Assembly: GCA_035533015.1 (NCBI GenBank)
Contig: DATLUQ010000055.1
Span: forward strand, 1-42,308
From: Gemmatimonadaceae bacterium
Lineage (GTDB): Bacteria; Gemmatimonadota; Gemmatimonadetes; Gemmatimonadales; Gemmatimonadaceae
DNA length: 42,308 bases
Reading direction: 5' to 3'
The position numbers were made by a program, and so were the translations under genes. The notes under the pieces were generated by a model. It made no database searches. It had not been told where the DNA came from and was given only the letters and a program-made list of their open reading frames with translations. Positions 107 to 11,443 of the stretch are shown here, piece after piece; the stretch's first letter is position 1; each line of letters begins with the position of its first letter.

Positions 107-2950
107 CTAGAACGTGTACCGCGCCGACAGCTGCACGCGCCTCGGCTGTGCTGCCGTGGTGTACACAATCGGATCCCCGGGGCGCCCCACCTGCACCCGC
201 GGGCCGCCGCCCGCGATGCCGTTGGCGAACCCGGACTCCTGCACCGAGTTCAGCGCGTTGAACACGTCCAGCCGGAGTTCCAGCCCCCGGGACCGGCCCA
301 TGGGCACGATGTAGCCGGCCCCGAGGTCCAGGTTGAACACGCTGGGCAGCCGTCCGCTATTGCGGCCCAACCCCGGAAACCGATCGAGGTTGCCCAAGTA
401 GACGTCGCCGAAGCCGGGGGTGCTCCCGTTCAGATCGTAGTAGGTGGCCGTGCCCGTGGCCGGGTCGTACTTCCCAGCCACCCAGTTGATCGGCTGGCCG
501 GTCTGGAAATCCGCGATGCCGCTCAACTGCACCCGCGGCACGGGCGTGTACACGGAGCGCAGGCGGACCACGTGGCGGCGATCGTTCACCGCGTCCGCCC
601 ACTCGTTCTTGAAGTTGTTCCCCTGCGTGGCGGCAAAGTTCACGTCTTCGGTGTTGTTCCGCGCGTGCGACCAGATCCAGTTGAGATCCGCCGTCCAGGT
701 ATCACTGAAGCGGTGCTGGACTTCCGTATAGAGGCCGGCGTACTCGCTCCGCCCGCCCGCGTCGGTGGTCGTGAGTTGGCGGAAGCTCCCGGGCCGCGGA
801 GTGACGGGCCGGTGGGCATCGCCGAACGATGGCGGCCGATTGATCGTATCGCCGGCGGTGAGCGTGTAATTCACCGCGTTGAGGTCCCACAGCCGGGGCA
901 GGTGTTCCGTGGCCGCGTACACGACATCGAACGACACGCCCCAACTCGGACCGAATTGCTGGCTGTAGCCGAGCGTTGCCTGGTAGCTGCGCGGATTCTT
1001 CAGGCCCCGCGCGAACGTCTGCCGGATCTCGCGCGGCGGGAGCTGCCCGCGAGCGGCCAGCAGTTGCTGCTCGCTCGGCGCCTGACCGAACGCTGGCGCG
1101 CCCGCGCCGTCGAAGGTCACGGCGGCGCTTCCGTTCGAGCCGAACTGCGTGGCGTCCGAATAGACCGTATACGGGAACTTCCCGATGTAGACGCCAGCCC
1201 CACCGCGGAAGACGCGATCGGGGGCAAAGGTCCAGTTGAAAGATGCCCGTGGTTGGAAGTTGGTGAGATCGGGCGAACTGGCGCCCCGGGACGTGATATC
1301 ATCGTAGTCCCACCGGAGCCCGTAGGTGACGTTGAGCAGCGGCGTGGCCCGCCACGCATCCTCGACATAGAGCCCGTACACGGCCTGCGACTGGTCCACG
1401 TGCTGCAGGATCGCGTCCACGGTATAGCTCTTGACCTGAACGTTGGCCGGGATGTCCCGAATCGAAATGAACCCGCCCGACCGGGTGATATTGCCCGTGT
1501 TGGCCACTTCGTACAGGCCGTGCGGATTCGTGCCCGCGCCGTCGAGCCGGAACCCGGCGGCGATGACATCCGTTCCAGCCTTCAATGTGTGCGTCCCCGC
1601 CTGGCGGACGAGCTCATCGCGCAGACTCACCTGGGTCTCGCGTTCGTCGAACTGAAAGCCCGAAGAGCCAACGATGGCCTGCAGCGCACCCTGCGGCGAC
1701 TCGATGTACACCTGCGGCGTGTTGAGAGAACTCGCCGTGGGCGGGTAGTACCAGTGGTAGGTGGCCACCTGCACTGACACCATGTTGGACGTGTGAGCCG
1801 TGACGTCGCTGCGGTGGGTAACGCTTCCGATGATTCCCAGCCGGTACTGGCCCACATCCGCCTCGGGCACCACCAGCCCCCCGCCCTCGCCACGCAACTG
1901 CAGGTTGCTGGCCGCAACCTTGAACGTCGTTGTCTGCGTACCGCTCCACACCTCATCCAGTCGGCCGAACAGCTTGAGCTGCCGCCGCTCCTGCGCCCCC
2001 GCTCCGTTTCCGAACGCCGTGGTCACGGCCTGGGGAGTCTTCTCGTCCAGGTACTCCGCCGCGCCGAAGACGAACGTCCGGTCGCGGTCCAGCGCTCCTC
2101 CGCCGGATCCGCCCAGTTGGTATCGATGAAATCGCTGCGGATCAGTGTTGGATGGCGTGAATGTCGGTCGGGCATCGAATCCACGGCCGGGGCGCCCGTA
2201 CGCGAAGAGATCGCCGTGCCAGTCGTTGGTGCCGCTGCGGGTGACGTAATTGACAATTCCATTGGAACTCCGCCCGAATTCCACGCCGTATGTGTTCGTC
2301 TTCACGTCCACGCGGCGCAGGGCGGACAGCGGCAGGTCCACCCGCGTTCCGCCCAGGAACCCCTCGTTGTTGTCCAACCCGTCAATGAAGTACTGGGTAT
2401 ACAGGGAATTGGAGCCGTTGATGCTGAGCACGGGGGCCGTATCGAAGAACCCCGTGGCCTGCGTGACGCCCGGCACGTAGAACGCGAGCTTCAGGGGATC
2501 GCGTCCGTCCGAGGGGAGCGCCTCGAGATCCCGCGCCGTGAGCGTGCCACCGGTGGCGGCATCGGTGTGATTCACCAGGGGCGGCTCCACGGACGCGCGC
2601 ACGGCGAACACCCCGAGCTGCGTCATGCGCGTCAACACCACGTCGACCCGGTGCACGTCGCCAGGCTGCAGCGCGGGAATCGCGATGGTGAACTCCGCGA
2701 ACCCGGCACGTTCCACGTGCAGGGCGAATGGCTCGCCCGACGGAACGCGCAGGGAGAACGCACCGGCCGAGTCCGCGCGTACCGCGTGAGCGCTGTCTAT
2801 CCGCACACGAGCGCTCGGGACGGGCGCACCGCGCGGGGTATGAACCGCGCCCGCCACGATCGAGGAGTCGGCGCGCTGGGCGTGTGCAGGCGCAGGAAAC
2901 GCAGGCACCGCGGCAAGAAGCAGCAAAACGAAGGACCGGCGAATAAGCAT
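107..2950 (-). CDS. TonB-dependent receptor with carboxypeptidase-regulatory-like N-terminal domain
   Basis: This is a 947-residue outer-membrane receptor of the large TonB-dependent class. The chosen start at 2950 places a clean signal peptide at the N-terminus (MLIRRSFVLLLLAAVPAFPA, cleavage after A-H-A); a longer reading from 3046 would put a non-signal extension in front of it. After the signal comes a carboxypeptidase-regulatory-like beta domain (about residues 25-110, 'AGAVHTPRGAPVPSARVRID'). A plug domain follows (about 130-240, with 'INGSNSLYTQYFIDGLDNNEG' and 'GIVNYVTRSGTN'), then a long barrel ending in an aromatic residue (L-S-A-R-Y-T-F), as outer-membrane barrels do. The substrate is not evident. 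The following gene is a truncated lipoprotein, but it shows no SusD signature. The preceding leader holds a strong GC hairpin. Confidence 0.9.
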   Translation of the reverse strand: MLIRRSFVLLLLAAVPAFPAPAHAQRADSSIVAGAVHTPRGAPVPSARVRIDSAHAVRADSAGAFSLRVPSGEPFALHVERAGFAEFTIAIPALQPGDVHRVDVVLTRMTQLGVFAVRASVEPPLVNHTDAATGGTLTARDLEALPSDGRDPLKLAFYVPGVTQATGFFDTAPVLSINGSNSLYTQYFIDGLDNNEGFLGGTRVDLPLSALRRVDVKTNTYGVEFGRSSNGIVNYVTRSGTNDWHGDLFAYGRPGRGFDARPTFTPSNTDPQRFHRYQLGGSGGGALDRDRTFVFGAAEYLDEKTPQAVTTAFGNGAGAQERRQLKLFGRLDEVWSGTQTTTFKVAASNLQLRGEGGGLVVPEADVGQYRLGIIGSVTHRSDVTAHTSNMVSVQVATYHWYYPPTASSLNTPQVYIESPQGALQAIVGSSGFQFDERETQVSLRDELVRQAGTHTLKAGTDVIAAGFRLDGAGTNPHGLYEVANTGNITRSGGFISIRDIPANVQVKSYTVDAILQHVDQSQAVYGLYVEDAWRATPLLNVTYGLRWDYDDITSRGASSPDLTNFQPRASFNWTFAPDRVFRGGAGVYIGKFPYTVYSDATQFGSNGSAAVTFDGAGAPAFGQAPSEQQLLAARGQLPPREIRQTFARGLKNPRSYQATLGYSQQFGPSWGVSFDVVYAATEHLPRLWDLNAVNYTLTAGDTINRPPSFGDAHRPVTPRPGSFRQLTTTDAGGRSEYAGLYTEVQHRFSDTWTADLNWIWSHARNNTEDVNFAATQGNNFKNEWADAVNDRRHVVRLRSVYTPVPRVQLSGIADFQTGQPINWVAGKYDPATGTATYYDLNGSTPGFGDVYLGNLDRFPGLGRNSGRLPSVFNLDLGAGYIVPMGRSRGLELRLDVFNALNSVQESGFANGIAGGGPRVQVGRPGDPIVYTTAAQPRRVQLSARYTF

Positions 2951-3000
2951 GGAATGGATCTGCGTGGTGTCCACGGGGGAAATGGCCGCCGACATCCCGT

Positions 3001-3024
3001 GCCGCCGCCCGCAGAGGCGGCGGC
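3001..3024. repeat. GC-rich perfect hairpin upstream of the TonB-dependent receptor gene
   Basis: GCCGCCGCC (3001-3009) and GGCGGCGGC (3016-3024) form a perfect 9-bp stem with a 6-base loop, about 50 bases before the receptor start and 77 bases after the end of the CDP-alcohol transferase gene. It has no T-tract. It could be a terminator for the upstream gene or a leader structure that limits receptor expression; the sequence does not decide between these. Confidence 0.4.
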
Positions 3025-3100
3025 CCGGCGGGCGGTCATGTCGCACCCGGGCAACACACAGGGGGCCCCGATGGTTCCGTGATGCTGGCCTGCGGCCTGT

Positions 3101-3712
3101 TCAGCGCAGAATCCGCCACGCCCATACGAGGCGCTGGGCCACGGTTGCCGCGACGAGCACGGCCATGGCCCCAAATAGCAGGACGATGTGCCCAGGCCAG
3201 ATGAAGAACAGCGTGTACGCGACCGCGGTCTCGGTTCCGGCAACCAGCCCAGGCGGCATCGTGACGCTGGTCAACTCGCCGTTCGCCGCGGCGCCGAGCG
3301 CGCGCCGCTCGAGGAGGGCGGCAAGGTACATCCACGACGCGGCGTTCACGTAGAACACGCCGACGAGCACCACCGCCGCCAGAATGGTCGTGCGGCTGGC
3401 CGCCGCGATGGCGAACCCTATGGGAATCGCGGCGTAGACGGCGAAATCCAATACGATATCCAGGTAGCCGCCAAAGTCGGACTGGCGGCCCGACGCGCGG
3501 GCCACGGTGCCGTCGAATCCATCGAGGAAGCGATTGACCAGCCAGAGCATCAACCCCAGCGTGTACGCCCCGCGCGCGCCGGCCCCGGCACTCCCCATTC
3601 CGACAACGAACCCGATCACGGTGACCGCGTTCGGATGCACCATCCCGCCCAGCCGCCGCGCCAGCGGGGCCAGCAGCCGGTCTTTCAGCGCACGCAGATA
3701 GTCGTCGAACAT
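3101..3712 (-). CDS. CDP-alcohol phosphatidyltransferase family membrane protein
   Basis: This 203-residue integral membrane enzyme has the full signature of CDP-alcohol phosphotransferases, D-G-x2-A-R-x8-G-x3-D-x3-D: D67-G-T-V-A-R72, G81, D85 and D89. The aspartates bind the divalent metal and the CDP-linked donor, and the enzyme transfers a phosphatidyl or similar group to an alcohol acceptor during phospholipid synthesis at the cytoplasmic membrane. About six hydrophobic segments are visible (for example 27-45, 50-62, 87-104, 107-130, 155-175 and 180-197). Which alcohol is used (inositol phosphate, glycerol phosphate or other) cannot be told from the sequence. It is transcribed toward the TonB-dependent receptor and divergently from the nrtS-like gene. 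Confidence 0.85.
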   Translation of the reverse strand: MFDDYLRALKDRLLAPLARRLGGMVHPNAVTVIGFVVGMGSAGAGARGAYTLGLMLWLVNRFLDGFDGTVARASGRQSDFGGYLDIVLDFAVYAAIPIGFAIAAASRTTILAAVVLVGVFYVNAASWMYLAALLERRALGAAANGELTSVTMPPGLVAGTETAVAYTLFFIWPGHIVLLFGAMAVLVAATVAQRLVWAWRILR

Positions 3713-4685: not shown

Positions 4686-5129
4686 GTGGAACGTACGTCC
4701 CGTTGGACCATGCCCCTGCTGCGGATCAGCATGGGAGTATTCCTGTTGCTGTGGGGAGTGGACAAACTGCTCGCCGCGCAGGGCGCGGGGCGGATCTTCA
4801 GCCACTTCTATCACGTGCCGGCGGGGCCCGTCCTGGTTCGCGCCGCCGCGGTGTTGGAAATTCTCGTGGCGATCTGCGTGGCCATCGGCCTATTTCGCCG
4901 CGCGTCGGCGTGGGCGGCGCTGGTCATGTCCGCCGCGTCCACGATCGGCAGCTGGAAGGAGATCCTGGACCCCTGGGGGCTGCTCGGCCTCACGACGGGG
5001 GGCACGCATCTCTTCCTGGCCTCCATCCCCCTCACGGCGGTCGCCGTGGTGCTGGTGCTGAATGCGTCCGACGACACGCTGGCACTCGATGCGCGCCTGC
5101 ACAGACCGTCCAGGCCCGTATCGCCATGA
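4686..5129 (+). CDS. DoxX family membrane protein
   Basis: The 147-residue protein has four hydrophobic segments (about 9-27, 50-72, 75-92 and 100-125) and the N-terminal 'LLRISMGVFLLLWGVDKL' typical of DoxX/DoxD-like proteins. Members are small inner-membrane proteins linked in various bacteria to thiol and oxidative stress or to quinone chemistry, but the family as a whole lacks one defined activity. The start is a GTG at 4686, chosen because GGAGGA lies 8 bases upstream. A predicted selenoprotein follows 24 bases later, so the two may share a transcript. Confidence 0.8.
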   Translation: MERTSRWTMPLLRISMGVFLLLWGVDKLLAAQGAGRIFSHFYHVPAGPVLVRAAAVLEILVAICVAIGLFRRASAWAALVMSAASTIGSWKEILDPWGLLGLTTGGTHLFLASIPLTAVAVVLVLNASDDTLALDARLHRPSRPVSP

Positions 5130-5153
5130 CCCCGCACGGTAGGAGCACCGCGA

Positions 5154-5894
5154 ATGGCTGATTTTTCGGAGCTACCGCTCGGCATGCGCATGCAGCTCGC
5201 GCTGTATCCGTGGCGGCGCATCGATCCGGTTCCGTGGACGCCGATGCGGGTGCCGCTCGCCTCCGCGCGGGTGGCCCTCGTCACGAGCGCCGGCATGTAT
5301 CGCGTCGGGATAGACGCGCCGTTCGCCCCCGTGCGGGGCGGCGACTCGAGCTATCGCCTGATCCCCGACGACACGGCGACGCAGGACCTAGTGGTCGGCC
5401 AGGTCAGCCACGCGTTCGACCGCGGGCCGGCCGAGCGTGACCCGAACATCGCGTTCCCGCTCGACCGCCTCCACGAAATGGTGGCCGATGGCACCATCGG
5501 CCACGCCGCGCCGCGGCACGTCAGCATCAACGGGTCGATCACCGCCCCTGGGCGTCTCGTGCGCGACACGGCGCCTCGCATTGCCGCGGAGCTGCGCGAC
5601 GACGGGGTAGACGTCGCGCTGCTCGTGCCCATATGACCGATGTGCACGCAGTCCGTGGGACTGCTCGCGGGTGTGTTGGAAGGTGCCGGCATCAGTACCG
5701 TATGCGTCGCATTGGTCCGGTCGGTAGCGGAACGGGTGCGGCCTCCACGGGCGCTGGCCGTGCCGTTCCCGTTCGGCTCGGCACTCGACCGCGCCGGGGA
5801 CCCGCCGCGCCAGCGTGCCGTCATGAGAAGGGCATTCGACCTGTTGCAGTGTGACGGGCCGGGGCCGATCCTCAAGGATCTACCAACCGACTGA
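5154..5894 (+). CDS. Predicted selenoprotein, GrdB/PrdB-like (glycine/sarcosine/betaine/D-proline reductase selenoprotein B family); UGA at 5634-5636 read as Sec
   Basis: The frame opens at ATG 5154 (AGGAG 8 bases upstream) and meets TGA at 5634-5636. The same frame then continues to 5894 with sequence that belongs to the same protein family. Read through, the product has 246 residues. The N-terminal part carries 'VPWTPMRVPLASARVALVTSAGMYR', 'SSYRLIPDD' and 'DPNIAFPLDRLHEMVADGTIGHAAPRHVSINGSI'. The centre reads 'DVALLVPI-U161-P-M-C164-TQSVGLLAGVLEGAGISTVCV'. In the GrdB-like family the equivalent position is the U of a U-x-x-C redox motif (LLxPxUPVCHQxVGLxAxxLE). The C-terminal part ('RPPRALAVPFPFG', then 'ILKDLPTD') is also family-like. 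A hairpin suited to be a SECIS starts 11 bases after the UGA. Substrate and partner are unknown, since the short GrdB-like members are not part of a visible glycine reductase complex. An automated caller would split the gene in two. Confidence 0.85.
5648..5664 (+). promoter_or_regulatory. Bacterial SECIS-like hairpin after the GrdB-like UGA
   Basis: GCAGTCC (5648-5654) pairs perfectly with GGACTGC (5658-5664), leaving a GTG loop. If the top C-G pair opens, the loop is CGTGG. Eighteen bases separate the UGA from the loop G at 5655. That lies within the roughly 16-37 base window described for bacterial SECIS elements, which also want a G (ideally GU) at the start of a small apical loop. A lower helix of 3 bp (5643-5645 with 5667-5669, one G-U pair) can extend it across a 2x2 internal loop. 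Its use by SelB is inferred from geometry. Confidence 0.6.
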
Positions 5895-5928: not shown

Positions 5929-6789
5929 CTACATCACGTGTTCGTGTGGGCCCAACGCCACCGGGATCTTCGACGATTCAAGCCCTCCGTCTCTGATCCA
6001 CGCTCCCGTCGCCTCGGCGGCCCGGTCTTCCAGCAGGGCTGCCTGCGAGAAGTCGTAGGCGCTCACGGGAAGCGGACACAGCGGCGGAACGATCGCGATC
6101 GGCGCACGCGCGCCGAGCCGCTCGACATCGTACACGAGCTGGCGCGCGACCAGCAGCGTCATCGTATGCAGCACCATCGCGATGGCGTTGCTCGGGGGTT
6201 GCGACGTGGCGCAGGTGAATCCGGTGGGCAGCACAATCACCCGCGAAGCGCCCATGGCGAGCGCCGTCGAGATCGGCGCGTTGTTGGCGATCGCCCCATC
6301 CACGAGATCGCGCCCACCGACGCGCACGGCCGGCAGGAGCACGGGAATGGACGCGCTGGCCATCAGCGCATCGCTCGCCGGCCCGCTCGTCAATACCACT
6401 TCCGCGCCGTTGCGCACGTCCGAGGCGACGATGGCGCACGGGAGCACGAGGCTCTCCAGCCGGGCATTCCCGAAGTGTGTGGTCAACAGGCGTCGCAGCC
6501 CCGATGGCTCGAGCAGGTGCTCCCGATGGCCGAACACGCCCCGCATGGCGCCTAGCGGATTGAGCGGAAACACGTCGCGTCTCGTGATCGATGCCCAGAT
6601 CTGCCCGAGGCGCGCCACGCCGGCAAGCGTCGGATCGGCCGCGAAGTACGCGCCGTTGATGGCGCCCACCGACGTTCCAACCACGAAGTCAGGCCGCACG
6701 TCGGCCATCAGGAGCGCGCGCAGCATCCCGACCTGGATGGCGCCGAGGCTTCCGCCACCGGCCAGGACGAAGGCCGTGCGCTCGTTCAT
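5929..6789 (-). CDS. Patatin-like phospholipase family protein
   Basis: The 286-residue protein has all patatin landmarks: the oxyanion-hole glycine run 'LAGGGSLGAIQVG' (9-21), the nucleophile elbow G-T-S40-V-G, and the catalytic aspartate in D164-G-A-I-A-N-N. It is a predicted serine lipid acyl hydrolase with a Ser-Asp dyad, acting on membrane lipids or lysolipids. The start at 6789 overlaps the stop of the upstream TVP38 gene (ATGA), so translation is coupled; a longer reading to 6873 would lie inside that gene. It is the last gene of a three-gene minus-strand set with the MerA-like oxidoreductase. It is convergent with the GrdB-like selenoprotein gene, with 34 bases between their ends. Confidence 0.9.
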   Translation of the reverse strand: MNERTAFVLAGGGSLGAIQVGMLRALLMADVRPDFVVGTSVGAINGAYFAADPTLAGVARLGQIWASITRRDVFPLNPLGAMRGVFGHREHLLEPSGLRRLLTTHFGNARLESLVLPCAIVASDVRNGAEVVLTSGPASDALMASASIPVLLPAVRVGGRDLVDGAIANNAPISTALAMGASRVIVLPTGFTCATSQPPSNAIAMVLHTMTLLVARQLVYDVERLGARAPIAIVPPLCPLPVSAYDFSQAALLEDRAAEATGAWIRDGGLESSKIPVALGPHEHVM

Positions 6790-7466
6790 GACTGGCGCCT
6801 TGTCCGGCGGACCAACGACGGCAGAAACGACAGCGCCAGCAGCAGGAAACTGGCGGCTACTACCTGGAGCCATGCGGTCCGCGACGTGCCCGAGATGCCC
6901 AGCGCCAGACTCTGCGCGAACCAGGTGTACACGAGTGTGCCGGGGATGATGCCCAGCGCCGTGCCCACGACGAACGCGCGCGTCGGCACACGCGCCAGTC
7001 CGGACGCGACACTCAATCCGTCGAACGGAATGAGCGGAATCAAGCGAAGGCGCCCGATGGCCATCGCACCCGTCCGCGACGACAACGTGTCGAGCCGCGC
7101 GGCGTGGCGGCCCAGCAGGAGCCGGATCGCGTCGGCGCCGAGCGCACGCGCCAGAATAAACGATCCGGTGGCGCCAATCGTCGCGGCCATCCAGTTGAGC
7201 GCCGACCCCTTGGCGAATCCAAACACGATGCCTCCGGCGAGCGTGAACGGCGTGGCCGGCAGCGCCAGCGTGGCCGCCACGGCGTACACCAGCACGAACA
7301 GTGCCGACGCTCCCGGGGCACTGCGGAGGCGCGCAGCCAGTCCCAGCGGATCGCCGAGCATTCCGGCCGCCGTCCCCCGGAGGGCCAACCCGGCGGCCGC
7401 GATCAGGGCGACGAAGATGCCCAGCCGAATGAGGGCCGCACGGCGCGAGATGGACGGCGTACTCAT
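6786..7466 (-). CDS. TVP38/TMEM64 (DedA-like, VTT domain) membrane protein
   Basis: The 226-residue protein has a hydrophobic N-terminal helix, a central VTT domain ('TLALPATPFTLAGGIVFGFAKGSALNWMAATIGATGSFILAR', then 'RLRLIPLIPFDGLSVASGLARVPTRAFVVGTALGIIPGTLVYTWF') and a terminal helix with a basic tail (RRTRRQS). TVP38/DedA-related proteins act in lipid scrambling or ion-coupled membrane transport; the substrate of this one is unknown. The start at 7466 overlaps the stop of the upstream MerA-like gene (ATGA). Genes for TVP38 proteins and MerA-like flavoproteins often sit together or are fused in other bacteria, which supports a shared membrane-linked redox function. Confidence 0.85.
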   Translation of the reverse strand: MSTPSISRRAALIRLGIFVALIAAAGLALRGTAAGMLGDPLGLAARLRSAPGASALFVLVYAVAATLALPATPFTLAGGIVFGFAKGSALNWMAATIGATGSFILARALGADAIRLLLGRHAARLDTLSSRTGAMAIGRLRLIPLIPFDGLSVASGLARVPTRAFVVGTALGIIPGTLVYTWFAQSLALGISGTSRTAWLQVVAASFLLLALSFLPSLVRRTRRQS

Positions 7467-9019
7467 CGAAACAGCGAGAACCACGCGCCGAACAGCCGGC
7501 GCGCCAGCGGCGTCAACCGCGTGCGTCGCCAGGCGTCCGCGGCTCGACGATACACTTCGGCCTGGGTCGGATACGCGTGGATGGTACCGCCCAGCGCACC
7601 CAAGCCCAAACGGTTGGTGATGGCCACCGCCAGCTCGCCGATCATCTCCCCCGCGTGATCCGCAACGAGCGTTCCGCCGAGAATACGATCGCTGCCGGCC
7701 CGCAGATGGACCTTGAGAAATCCACCGTCGGCCCCGTCGAGCACGGCGCGGTCCACGTGCGACAACTCCACGGTGACGGTCTCCACCTTGCGCCCGGCGG
7801 CCTCCGCCTCGGCCGGCGTGAGCCCCACGTGCGCCACTTCGGGCGACGTGTAGGTCACGCGAGGCACGACAAGTTTGCTGTTACGTCCCCCACCGATGCC
7901 GAAGAAGAGCGCGTTGGGGACGGCCAGCCGGGCCTGGGCATCAGCGACGTGCGTGAACTGGAGCGGCGACGAGACGTCGCCGATAGCGTACACGCGACGA
8001 TTGCTGGTGCGCAGCCGGTCGTTGACGGTGATTCCGGTCGGCGAATACGCAATGCCGGCCGCGTCGAGCCCGAGGTTGTCCACGTTCGGCGCCCGCCCGG
8101 TCGCGATGAGCAGCCGGTCGCCCCGAATCGTCACGCTCCCCTGCGCGCCCGTCGCCGTCACGGTGAATTCCGCTCCGGCATACGACACGGACGTCAGGCG
8201 GTGATCGTGGTGCTGCGCGACGCCGTCGGCCCGGAGCGACGCCGAGACCAACTCGGCCGCGTCGGCGTCTTCGCGCGGCAGCAGGCGCGGACCGGCATTC
8301 ACCAGGGTGACGGCCGTGCCCAATCGCGCGAACGCCTGCGCCAACTCCGCGCCGATCGGTCCGCCACCCACCACGATCAGATGTCGCGGGCGTTCGGTCA
8401 CGGTGAAGATGGTCTCGTTGGTGTCGAACGGCGTGTCGGCAAGGCCGGGAACGAGCGGCACGGCGGCGCGCGCGCCGGTCGCGACGATGGCGCGACGGAA
8501 TCGCACCGTGCGGTCTCCGATGCGCACCGCATCCGGCGCCACGAATGCCGCGTCGCTCAGAAAGACGTCGACGCCCAGGCCGCGGAACCGCGCGGCCGAA
8601 TCGACGTCGCTCAACCCCGCTCGCAGGCCGCGGAGCCGGGCCATCGCCGCGGCGAAATCGCCGTCGCCCGATGCGCGCGGCCCCCCGAAAGCGGCGGCCG
8701 AGCCGCGCGCGTCATGCCACCCGCGGGCGGCACGGATGACCGCTTTGGACGGCACGCATCCCACGTTGAGGCAGTCGCCGCCGAGCATGGCGCGTTCAAC
8801 CAGGGCAACGCGCGCGCCCAACCCCGCGCCGATGGCGGCGCTCACGAGACCGGCGGTGCCGCCACCGATCACGACCAGGTGATAGCGATCGCGTTTCGGC
8901 GGCAGCGGCCAGCCGCGAGGACTCACATTGCCCGCCCAGTGCGCGTTCGGCGCATCGAACGGCGGCGCCGCGAAGCGCCCGGGCCAGTCAGCCGGCGGGT
9001 CAGGGAATGTTCGTGTCAC
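7463..9019 (-). CDS. MerA-like pyridine nucleotide-disulfide oxidoreductase (mercuric reductase family, no C-terminal Cys pair)
   Basis: The 518-residue flavoprotein has an FAD-binding 'LVVIGGGTAGLVSAAIGAGLGARVALVER', the redox disulfide G-G-D-C83-L-N-V-G-C88-V-P-S-K, an NAD(P)H-binding 'LIVVGGGPIGAELAQAFARLG', the 'YAIGDV' motif and a C-terminal dimerisation domain with 'HAYPTQAEV'. It differs from true MerA in ending 'RRLFGAWFSLFR', without the vicinal Cys pair that delivers Hg(II). Its physiological substrate is therefore probably something other than mercuric ion. I place the start at a GTG at 9019, since the open frame to 9190 runs through the mer promoter and into merR on the other strand. 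The GTG lacks a strong Shine-Dalgarno, so the start is less certain than the gene. Confidence 0.88.
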   Translation of the reverse strand: MTRTFPDPPADWPGRFAAPPFDAPNAHWAGNVSPRGWPLPPKRDRYHLVVIGGGTAGLVSAAIGAGLGARVALVERAMLGGDCLNVGCVPSKAVIRAARGWHDARGSAAAFGGPRASGDGDFAAAMARLRGLRAGLSDVDSAARFRGLGVDVFLSDAAFVAPDAVRIGDRTVRFRRAIVATGARAAVPLVPGLADTPFDTNETIFTVTERPRHLIVVGGGPIGAELAQAFARLGTAVTLVNAGPRLLPREDADAAELVSASLRADGVAQHHDHRLTSVSYAGAEFTVTATGAQGSVTIRGDRLLIATGRAPNVDNLGLDAAGIAYSPTGITVNDRLRTSNRRVYAIGDVSSPLQFTHVADAQARLAVPNALFFGIGGGRNSKLVVPRVTYTSPEVAHVGLTPAEAEAAGRKVETVTVELSHVDRAVLDGADGGFLKVHLRAGSDRILGGTLVADHAGEMIGELAVAITNRLGLGALGGTIHAYPTQAEVYRRAADAWRRTRLTPLARRLFGAWFSLFR

Positions 9020-9117
9020 GTCGGCGACGGTCCTTGAAGAGTTGCGTGCGGTGCGTCGTGTAGCGGGGCAACCGGCAGCTGCCCGGAAAAGTTCAATGCA
9101 CGACGCGGCGATGCCTC

Positions 9118-9149
9118 TTGACCCTATACCAAGGTATAGGGTGTAGGAT
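9118..9149 (+). promoter_or_regulatory. MerR-type promoter and operator of the mer operon
   Basis: The -35 TTGACC (9118-9123) and -10 TAGGAT (9144-9149) are separated by 20 bp, the over-long spacer typical of MerR-activated promoters. The spacer holds a perfect dyad: CCTATACC-AA-GGTATAGG extended by one A-T and one more C-G pair, giving 10-bp arms at 9121-9130 and 9133-9142. It lies 29 bases ahead of the merR start on the same strand, so merR is autoregulated and co-transcribed with merC-like and merA rather than divergent from them as in Tn501 or Tn21. Confidence 0.88.
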
Positions 9150-9177
9150 TCAGGATCACGCGATGAGGAGGGGGGCG

Positions 9178-9591
9178 ATGGCGCTGTCAATCGGTCAGGT
9201 CGCCGCAGCGGCCGATGTCAACATCCAAACCATTCGGTACTACGAGCGCCGCGGCATTCTTGTCCCCGCGAGTCGGACACCCGCGGGGTACCGCAAATAC
9301 GGGGACGACGCGGTGTCCCGGCTGCAATTCATTCGCCACGCCCAGGCGCTCGGGTTCACGCTCGGCGAGATCGACGAACTGCTGGCCCTCCGCGTCCGCG
9401 ATGCCGGCGCTTGCCGTCACGTCGAGAAACGGACGCGCGAGAAGATCGATGACGTGGACCTCCGCATTCGCGAGCTCCGGAAGATCAAACGGACTCTGGA
9501 GCGCCTCGCGGCGACCTGCGAGAGTCGACGGACCACGAACGCGTGTCCCATTCTGGAGGCACTGGAAGACAATGCCGATTTTGGAAGATAA
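9178..9591 (+). CDS. merR: Mercury-type MerR transcriptional regulator
   Basis: The 137-residue regulator has an N-terminal winged helix-turn-helix ('SIGQVAAAADVNIQTIRYYERRGIL', then 'PAGYRKYGDDAVSRLQFI'), a long dimerisation helix and a C-terminal metal site. The three cysteines C79, C114 and C123 are spaced 35 and 9 residues apart. This is the same spacing as the Hg(II) ligands C82, C117 and C126 of Tn501 MerR, so mercury sensing is well supported. The ATG at 9178 has GAGGAGGGG just upstream; an upstream reading from 9118 would include the promoter. The end overlaps the start of the MerC-like gene by 20 bases, and merA follows. Confidence 0.92.
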   Translation: MALSIGQVAAAADVNIQTIRYYERRGILVPASRTPAGYRKYGDDAVSRLQFIRHAQALGFTLGEIDELLALRVRDAGACRHVEKRTREKIDDVDLRIRELRKIKRTLERLAATCESRRTTNACPILEALEDNADFGR

Positions 9592-9967
9592 GGGAACGAC
9601 CTCGGCCGTTGGCGGACTCGCCGGGGCCGCCGCAAGTTCCGTCGCGTTGCTCTGTTGCGCAGGCGCAGGCCCGGCGCTCGCATTAGCCACTGCCCTGGGT
9701 CTCGGCTTTCTGATCCACGATGCAGTGCTGATCCCGCTGCTCGTCATCGCGCTGGGCGTCACCATGTGGGGGCTGAGCGATGGGCGAGGCCGCCATGGCA
9801 AGCCGTGGCCCCAGCATCTCGGAACCGTGGGTGCGGTGTGTACCCTGGGCGGGATGTTCGTCTGGCTGCCGCTTGCGTACGCCGGACTCGGCATGATCAT
9901 CGCGGCCAGCGCGTGGAATCTCTGGCTGACGCATCGGTGCGCGGCCCCCGACCGGCAGACCATTTGA
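9572..9967 (+). CDS. merC: MerC-like mercuric ion transport protein
   Basis: The 131-residue membrane protein has four hydrophobic segments (about 12-30, 34-60, 70-92 and 95-118). A vicinal pair C28-C29 sits in the first segment, followed by 'ALATALGLGFLIHDAVLIPLL' and a last helix 'AYAGLGMIIAASAWNLWL'. This matches MerC in length and helix pattern; MerC helices 1 and 4 carry similar sequence, although MerC has C-x-x-C in helix 1 where this protein has C-C. The role is uptake of Hg(II) across the inner membrane to MerA. The ATG at 9572 lies inside the end of merR, so translation is coupled. No merP or merT gene is present between merR and merA. Confidence 0.72.
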   Translation: MPILEDKGTTSAVGGLAGAAASSVALLCCAGAGPALALATALGLGFLIHDAVLIPLLVIALGVTMWGLSDGRGRHGKPWPQHLGTVGAVCTLGGMFVWLPLAYAGLGMIIAASAWNLWLTHRCAAPDRQTI

Positions 9968-9997
9968 CGGATTGTCTCCCACGACGTGAGGTGCATG

Positions 9998-11443
9998 ATG
10001 GCTAAGGGCAGCGGCACAAAGCACGTCCACGCCGGTCGCGGTATGGAATACGACGTAGCCGTGATCGGCGGGGGCTCGGCCGGCTTCGCGGCCGCGATCC
10101 GTGCCGCGGAACTGGGCGCCCGGGTGGCCATGCTCGAGGGCGGCACGCTCGGCGGTACGTGCGTCAACGTGGGGTGTGTACCATCCAAGACGCTGATTCG
10201 CGCCGCCGAAGCGCAGCACCATCGCCAGCACCACGGGTTCCACGGTATTGCGACATCTGATGGCGTGCCCGACTGGGCCGCGGTGCGCGCGCAGAAGGAC
10301 GAACTCGTCGCGACGCTGCGACAGGCCAAGTACCGCGACGTGATCCAGGGGTACGAGTCGGTGACTCTGTTCGAGCAACGGGCGGCCATCACCTCGGACC
10401 ACGGCATCGACGTCGCCGACGGACGCCGGATCCGCGCTGGCAAGATCATCATCGCGACCGGCGCCTCGGCGTGGGCCGCACCGATTCCGGGGCTCGCTGA
10501 AGCCGGGTATCTGGATAACGATTCAGCCATGGCGCTCGACGAGTTGCCAGCGTCTCTGATTGTGATCGGGGCGAGCGCGGTGGGACTCGAACTGGCCCAG
10601 ATGTTCTCGCGTTTGGGGGTACATGTCACCGTGCTCGAGGCGCTGCCGACCGTCGTGCCCATGGAAGACGCCGACGTGGGACGCGCGCTCGGCGACTATC
10701 TGCGCGCGGAAGGCCTGGACGTACGCGTCGGCGTCCGGATTGCGCATGTGGCGCGCACGGATGGGGCGTACCACGTATCGCTCACCGACGACGGCCGGCC
10801 GGAGACCGTGCACGCCGCCCAACTGCTCGTCGCAACTGGGCGGCGGCCGAACACTCACGGGTTCGGTCTCGAGGCGACTGGCGTGATGTTGGGGAAGAAG
10901 GGAGAAGTCGTCGTGGACGAGTTCTTGCAGACCGCCAACCCCGACATCTATGCGGCGGGCGACGTGATCGGCGATCCGGCGTTCGTGTACGTGGCGGCGT
11001 ATGGCGGGTCGCTGGCCGCGGAGAACGCGCTGACCGGAAACGCGCGGCGCTTCGACCTGACCGCCCTACCCAAGGTCACGTTCACGGACCCCGGCGTGGC
11101 GTCGGTGGGCCTCACCGAGGTCGAGGCGCGAGCCAACGGGGGGACGGTCGTCGTGTCCATCCTCTCGATGGAACACGTGCCGCGCGCGCTGGCCGCCCGC
11201 GACACCCGCGGGTTCGTGAAGCTCGTGGCGGACGCGGCCACACGAAAGATCGTCGGCGCGCACATCCTCTCGACCGAAGCGGGCGAGATGATCACCGAGC
11301 CCGCGCTGGCCATCAAGTTCGGACTGACGATCGAGGATCTGAAGGCCACCTTCCACCCCTATCTGACGCTGGCCGAAGCGATCAAGCTCGCGGCGCAGAC
11401 CTTCGACAAGGACGTGGCCAAGTTGTCGTGCTGCGCCGCGTGA
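9998..11443 (+). CDS. merA: Mercuric reductase MerA (without N-terminal HMA domain)
   Basis: The 481-residue flavoenzyme reduces Hg(II) to volatile Hg(0) with NADPH in the cytoplasm. It has an FAD motif ('VAVIGGGSAGFAAAIRAAELGARVAMLEG'), the active-site disulfide G-G-T-C55-V-N-V-G-C60-V-P-S-K, an NADPH motif ('LIVIGASAVGLELAQMFSRLG') and the 'IYAAGDVIG' motif. The diagnostic vicinal cysteines C478-C479 lie two residues from the C-terminus (K-L-S-C-C-A-A), where they hand Hg(II) to the active site. There is no N-terminal metallochaperone-like domain. Of the possible starts GTG 9986, ATG 9995 and ATG 9998, the last has the best spacing from GAGG at 9988. It completes the mer operon. Confidence 0.93.
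   Translation: MAKGSGTKHVHAGRGMEYDVAVIGGGSAGFAAAIRAAELGARVAMLEGGTLGGTCVNVGCVPSKTLIRAAEAQHHRQHHGFHGIATSDGVPDWAAVRAQKDELVATLRQAKYRDVIQGYESVTLFEQRAAITSDHGIDVADGRRIRAGKIIIATGASAWAAPIPGLAEAGYLDNDSAMALDELPASLIVIGASAVGLELAQMFSRLGVHVTVLEALPTVVPMEDADVGRALGDYLRAEGLDVRVGVRIAHVARTDGAYHVSLTDDGRPETVHAAQLLVATGRRPNTHGFGLEATGVMLGKKGEVVVDEFLQTANPDIYAAGDVIGDPAFVYVAAYGGSLAAENALTGNARRFDLTALPKVTFTDPGVASVGLTEVEARANGGTVVVSILSMEHVPRALAARDTRGFVKLVADAATRKIVGAHILSTEAGEMITEPALAIKFGLTIEDLKATFHPYLTLAEAIKLAAQTFDKDVAKLSCCAA

Follow-up and report, generated by a model that had tools for sequence, protein, structure and literature searches.

A PrdB-like selenoprotein without PrdA in a Gemmatimonadaceae genome, with a flavoprotein as its candidate electron donor

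A gene in the window (the whole stretch of 42,308 nucleotides analysed here, contig C55 of the 66 contigs of a 3.03-Mb, 95.2% complete Gemmatimonadaceae genome) almost certainly encodes, to judge from sequence comparison, a genuine selenoprotein of the PrdB/GrdB superfamily (Table 1). This protein is a member of an orphan PrdB-like subfamily for which genome searches indicate no pyruvoyl partner PrdA, and it probably carries out a reduction different from that of D-proline reductase. Its likely role is that of a stand-alone Sec/Cys reductase fed by a flavoenzyme. The Gemmatimonadota, to which the source organism belongs, are a phylum of soil and water.

Table 1. Features of the selenoprotein locus (positions in the window)
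Feature	Position	Strand	Details
DoxX-like membrane protein gene	4686..5129	+	PF07681, E 5.5e-8; stop 24 bp 5' of selenoprotein gene
Likely ribosome binding site GGTAGGAG	5139..5153	+	5' of ATG 5154; inferred from reading of the sequence
PrdB-like selenoprotein gene	5154..5894	+	246 aa; Sec161; UxxC = U161-P-M-C164
In-frame UGA (Sec codon)	5634..5636	+	aligned with UGA in true PrdB, with Cys in relatives
Bacterial SECIS hairpin	5648..5664	+	stem 5648-5653 with 5659-5664; covariation over 37 distinct sequences
VTT-domain (TVP38/TMEM64-type) membrane protein	6786..7484	-	PF09335
FAD-containing pyridine nucleotide-disulphide oxidoreductase (NF004991), CxxxxC	7463..9190	-	647 bits, above cut-off of 620; candidate electron donor

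Translation bore out an initial annotation in which the frame 5154-5894 was broken solely by TGA at 5634-5636; the terminal TGA is at 5892-5894. With the internal UGA read as U, the product has 246 residues and the local sequence is ...DVALLVPI-U-PMCTQSVGLL... (in the read-through protein, ...VDVALLVPI-U-PMCTQSVGLLAGV...). The read-through protein matched the PrdB model TIGR04483 over residues 27-230 (E 5.4e-35, 120.9 bits). That both flanks of the UGA are family-like, as had been proposed, is confirmed by separate and collinear matches of the two halves to TIGR04483: residues 1-160 alone gave E 7.5e-24 (residues 27-157 on profile positions 19-144) and residues 162-246 alone gave E 1.2e-4 (from residue 164, on profile positions 151-217). 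The GRDB superfamily model PF07355 was matched with 33.7 bits, above its gathering cut-off of 22 bits, and the GrdB models TIGR01917 and TIGR01918 gave weak matches (38.1 and 43.9 bits) below their cut-offs (602.2 and 65.45). Alignment also places the U-x-x-C motif at the selenocysteine position of the family, since U161 falls on the UGA codons of annotated PrdB from Peptoclostridium, Terrisporobacter and Enterococcus, and on Cys in Roseomonas, Haematobacter and one gemmatimonad copy (L059). Highly conserved family features (GDxSxR, DxNxxFP, U/C-P-x-C and PPR) occur both before and after the UGA.

The hairpin downstream of the UGA (GCAGUCC-GUG-GGACUGC, -10.1 kcal/mol) has a stem that starts 11 nt and a loop that starts 18 nt after that codon. 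The 7-bp hairpin with a GU-containing loop described in the initial annotation stands, but the 18 nt given there as the start of the hairpin is the distance to its loop. A published bSECIS model specifies an apical loop of 3-9 nt, a stem of 4-16 bp, a G within the first two loop positions, a distance of 16-37 nt from the UGA and an energy of ≤ -7.5 kcal/mol (PMC13188914). With its 7-bp stem, 3-nt GUG loop, distance of 18 nt and energy of -10.1 kcal/mol, the window hairpin falls within all these limits. In the loop pattern of the same source, N1 also pairs with N2 across G[G/U] (PMC13188914); in the window, C5654-G5657 closes a GU loop at 5655-5656 and leaves 5658 bulged.

Covariation was assessed over 37 distinct post-UGA sequences, after exclusion of three PrdB of firmicutes and of three divergent copies whose hairpin is in a different register. 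Pair cells were paired in 98.5% of cases versus 78.7% after shuffling, a figure that holds for the main type only because the three other-register copies were left out, by a choice made after viewing them. When the partner was slid by one to three columns, pairing fell to 14-45%; shared ancestry is not removed by the shuffles but is retained in this slid control. Cells with a change on both sides numbered 46; shuffles gave 15.7, and none of the 500 reached 46. Complete six-pair stems occurred in 35 of the 37 sequences, whereas 500 randomisations of synonymous codons, made with the codon usage of the window, left 1.9 on average and never more than 7. Three pairs covary (numbered as codon.position, with codons counted after the UGA): 4.3-10.1 (CG, GC, UA), 6.1-8.3 (UA, AU, GC and wobbles) and 6.3-7.3 (CG, GC). 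Both members of the 6.3-7.3 pair are third, synonymous, positions; 4.3 and 8.3 are likewise third in their codons. The GU dinucleotide is closed by 6.3-7.3, with the variable base 8.1 left as a bulge. A GUG-loop reading in which 6.3 pairs with 8.1 was rejected, as these bases pair in 19 of the 37 sequences, no better than shuffled, compared with 36 of 37 for 6.3 with 7.3.

As a single sequence, the window hairpin has an unexceptional folding energy against its G+C-rich background (z -0.81), and Rfam scans of it, at gathering and at permissive thresholds, gave no match to a SECIS family. Single-sequence folding energy being uninformative here, it is the family-wide covariation that marks the hairpin as a real SECIS element. 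In the alignment, a covarying pair can be seen to close the SECIS loop, which can help annotation tools that would otherwise split such a gene in two.

The genome carries the machinery for selenocysteine insertion. SelA (E 2.4e-137), SelB and SelD (E 4.8e-113) were all found, and a tRNA-Sec gene with a UCA anticodon adjoins selD on the same strand (L002 and L018; G000:C58, 7779-8886), so that the selA, selB, selC and selD genes named for a search in the initial annotation are all present. SelA was found in 30 of the 32 genomes of the phylum that carry a relative of the protein versus 287 of 395 overall (p about 0.003, a binomial estimate made by hand). SelB bound to the SECIS hairpin would bring Sec-tRNA(UCA) to the UGA at 5634.

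AlphaFold2, run on the read-through sequence with C in place of U and with 23 family sequences, gave a mean pLDDT of 95 and a pTM of 0.93, and placed residue 161 in the turn that links beta strand 154-158 to helix 164-177. Foldseek gave no PDB match with E below 0.001, and a sequence profile search of the PDB found nothing related. The best VIA-align match (Z 7.7) was to generic Rossmann-type folds; because these structural matches are generic and of low significance, no function is drawn from them. Sequence comparison and the confident model together indicate that Sec161 and Cys164 form a U-x-x-C redox pair where a beta strand ends, within a Rossmann-like alpha/beta fold. Sec161 would most likely attack or reduce the substrate, and Cys164 would resolve the resulting selenenylsulphide. 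An FAD enzyme resembling glutathione reductase and MerA may then restore the pair with NAD(P)H and so fill the position of PrdC in the PrdB system, as operons in relatives suggest. Leading guesses for the substrate are peroxides, electrophiles and metal(loid) compounds.

The candidate for this FAD enzyme is encoded 1.6 kb from the PrdB-like gene, on the opposite strand rather than in the same operon. It is the sole NF004991 copy above the cut-off in the genome; by estimate, chance would put a single-copy gene no more than 6 kb from a given gene in about 0.4% of cases for a 3 Mb genome. A pyridine nucleotide-disulphide oxidoreductase is encoded nearby in only 6 of 24 loci (several contigs are short), and these six come from two named phyla. 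An NCBIfam scan covered five of the six (the other, L065, is a sister of L063); NF004991 was the best model in all five and above its cut-off in four. The flavoprotein and PrdB-like genes form tight operons in L057, L063, L065 and L076. The stop of the flavoprotein gene overlaps the start of the PrdB-like gene (TGATG) in L063 and L065; the order in L057 and L076 is flavoprotein, TIGR04283 glycosyltransferase and PrdB-like protein, the genes touching or overlapping. The CxxxxC redox motif is kept in all flavoproteins of the operon loci. Relatives of the VTT-domain protein occur, by neighbour clustering, with the flavoprotein gene beside related PrdB-like genes. A TGA flagged in a disulphide-oxidoreductase match on contig C40 was set aside, as it lies outside the conserved coding part and 5' of the likely start.

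Based on the operons in relatives, there is about an even chance that the NF004991 flavoprotein regenerates the Sec161-Cys164 pair, and the link supplies a named donor candidate for testing. A broader proposal can be put forward only tentatively: orphan PrdB-like proteins may supply the Sec-bearing catalytic subunit to a reductase module of a new kind, dependent on NAD(P)H and made up with the flavoprotein disulphide reductase and sometimes a TIGR04283 glycosyltransferase. Chemically, such a module would derive from the Stickland reductases but work independently of PrdA; it would be widespread among free-living bacteria and would so far have been mislabelled 'proline reductase'.

The protein could instead be a stand-alone selenoperoxidase or thiol peroxidase for oxidative-stress defence, with thioredoxin or glutathione rather than the neighbouring flavoprotein as reductant. 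This is somewhat unlikely, since the tight operons with one disulphide reductase family in two named phyla point to a dedicated donor. However, GrdB has been reported to have peroxidase activity, according to a title cited in PMC3091704, which makes a peroxidase the main rival reading and a metal(loid) role a weaker one. The variable gene neighbours outside the Gemmatimonadota fit a general redox enzyme, and UxxC is widespread as a redox motif.

The window also holds a small mer locus about 3-4 kb from the selenoprotein gene, in which a frame with a MerC domain (about 9600-9967, plus strand) is followed by a mercuric reductase gene (merA, 9986-11443, plus strand; TIGR02053, 563.7 bits, above the cut-off of 454.45). 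It is improbable that the PrdB-like protein, the flavoprotein, the VTT protein and glycosyltransferases of TIGR04282/TIGR04283 form a metal(loid) pathway acting on organo-arsenic or mercury compounds. The operons of FAD enzyme, TIGR04283 protein and PrdB-like protein in L057 and L076 would suit such a pathway, as would the nearby above-threshold merA and MerC domain. However, merA and the flavoprotein gene are on opposite strands, no merA was seen next to the relatives, and 'arsenosugar' is merely the annotation name of a family. Neither TIGR04283 nor ArsS (TIGR04167) has a match above the cut-off in the source genome, and because the matches there are sub-threshold the arsenic reading is kept as a rival only. 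An orphan PrdB-like selenoprotein acting as a Sec/Cys reductase that a flavoenzyme would feed is, with good confidence, the best explanation of the locus as a whole.

The GrdB/PrdB-like identity proposed in the initial annotation is supported, and the present analysis adds that the protein belongs to an orphan subfamily without PrdA. PF09338 (PrdA/GrdE) was found nowhere in the source genome, in 1 of the 395 genomes of the phylum and in 0 of 12 further subfamily-carrying genomes of other phyla; the same search found it in three of three true-PrdB records, used as a positive control. A maximum-likelihood tree separates the window protein from firmicute PrdB and groups it in a clade of 24 rows (support 100/99). 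The mechanism proposed for clostridia has the PrdB Sec attacking D-proline that is bound to the pyruvoyl group of PrdA, with PrdC passing electrons back from NADH (PMC3091704). As PrdA is absent, this PrdA-pyruvoyl chemistry is not available, and the protein is very likely not a D-proline reductase. That it is nevertheless a true PrdB, with an unrecognised PrdA encoded elsewhere in the genome, is most improbable. PrdB is the best family model and the UxxC position is identical, but the score of 120.9 bits is far under the equivalog cut-off of 300 bits, PF09338 is missing from a 95%-complete genome and 12 others, and the clade is separate. The sole PF09338-positive gemmatimonad locus among the 395 genomes (L054; genome G145, contig C75) adjoins a GrdB-like frame that also contains a UGA.

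PrdB of Clostridium sticklandii has Sec152 in 242 residues (PMC3091704). The window protein resembles PrdB in length, in collinearity over residues 27-230 and in having Sec in U-x-x-C at the aligned position. It differs in having about 32-35% identity and 121 of 300 bits, in falling in its own clade without PrdA, and in the sequence of its downstream hairpin. GrdB (PF07355; selenoprotein B of glycine/betaine/sarcosine reductase) shares the C-terminal family part and the UxxC position, but has about 430 residues compared with 246, and the window protein matches profile positions 204-421 only. The 'glycine/sarcosine/betaine reductase selenoprotein B family protein' of Roseomonas and Haematobacter has an aligned CxxC and no adjacent annotated PrdA; it differs in having Cys for Sec, about 300 residues and a very long branch.

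The excerpted text of two ocean metagenome surveys names PrdB as proline reductase and ranks it among the most abundant selenoprotein families, with 42 PrdB selenoprotein genes in the Sargasso Sea (PMC1088965) and 235 Sec and 110 Cys sequences in GOS (PMC2398784). These marine sets resemble the present one in family, UxxC motif, occurrence of Sec and Cys forms, and origin in free-living microbes, and they probably include the orphan type. As such surveys have reported PrdB with UxxC from 2005 onwards, the family itself was already known; the variant is the orphan subfamily with its operon partner. The surveys use the 'proline reductase' label, and the same excerpts contain no discussion of PrdA absence, an operon partner or SECIS covariation (PMC1088965, PMC2398784). 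As the subfamily keeps Sec and an intact SECIS without the proline-reductase subunit, at least these members would catalyse another reaction, and for an orphan subfamily without PrdA the family name is no guide to function, whether D-proline or glycine reduction.

A relative of the protein was found in 32 of the 395 genomes of the phylum. Exactly one in-frame stop, TGA in the same column, is present in 28 Gemmatimonadota copies (that of the window included), and one Gemmatimonadota copy has TGC there. In a second collection, drawn partly from the same genomes, 22 of the 23 full or near-full loci have this UGA as well. Relatives in records titled Acidobacteria, Verrucomicrobia, Nitrospirae, Deltaproteobacteria and Proteobacteria all have TGA; most relatives are from metagenome-assembled genomes, and the taxon names outside the phylum are those of such records. 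For pairs with the window gene, pN/pS was 0.36-0.53 before and 0.43-0.48 after the UGA, rough values because synonymous change is near saturation, but indicating similar constraint. The sequence after the UGA is thus kept under selection in relatives, where the initial annotation had named degradation as the sign of a pseudogene. A chance stop in a decaying Cys-type gene, or a sequencing error, as a draft-genome contig and the TGC version in one relative might suggest, is refuted in practice by the shared UGA in 28 Gemmatimonadota copies and relatives of other phyla, the downstream constraint, the covarying hairpin and the full Sec machinery.

The gemmatimonad TGC copy (L032/L059) comes from a genome in which SelA is still present and has a half-lost hairpin, with three of the six pairs kept; it is a recent-looking Sec-to-Cys replacement. 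A copy in a Verrucomicrobia record (L075, 6001-6696) reads U-P-M-S, with Ser for the resolving Cys, and keeps the UGA and the hairpin. A second, more distant set of UGA-containing PrdB-like genes (L041-L052) is present in the same phylum, with 34-41% identity to the window protein; some of these branch closer to firmicute PrdB, and the hairpin register is seemingly shifted in L047, L049 and L050. A DNA search of plasmids gave no close match. Near the PrdB-like gene, the window also encodes an outer-membrane beta-barrel protein with a TonB plug (107-3046, minus strand) and a CDP-alcohol phosphatidyltransferase (3101-3712, minus strand), and relatives of these frames are found close to the PrdB-like gene in five other gemmatimonad loci (L056, L060, L063, L065 and L077).
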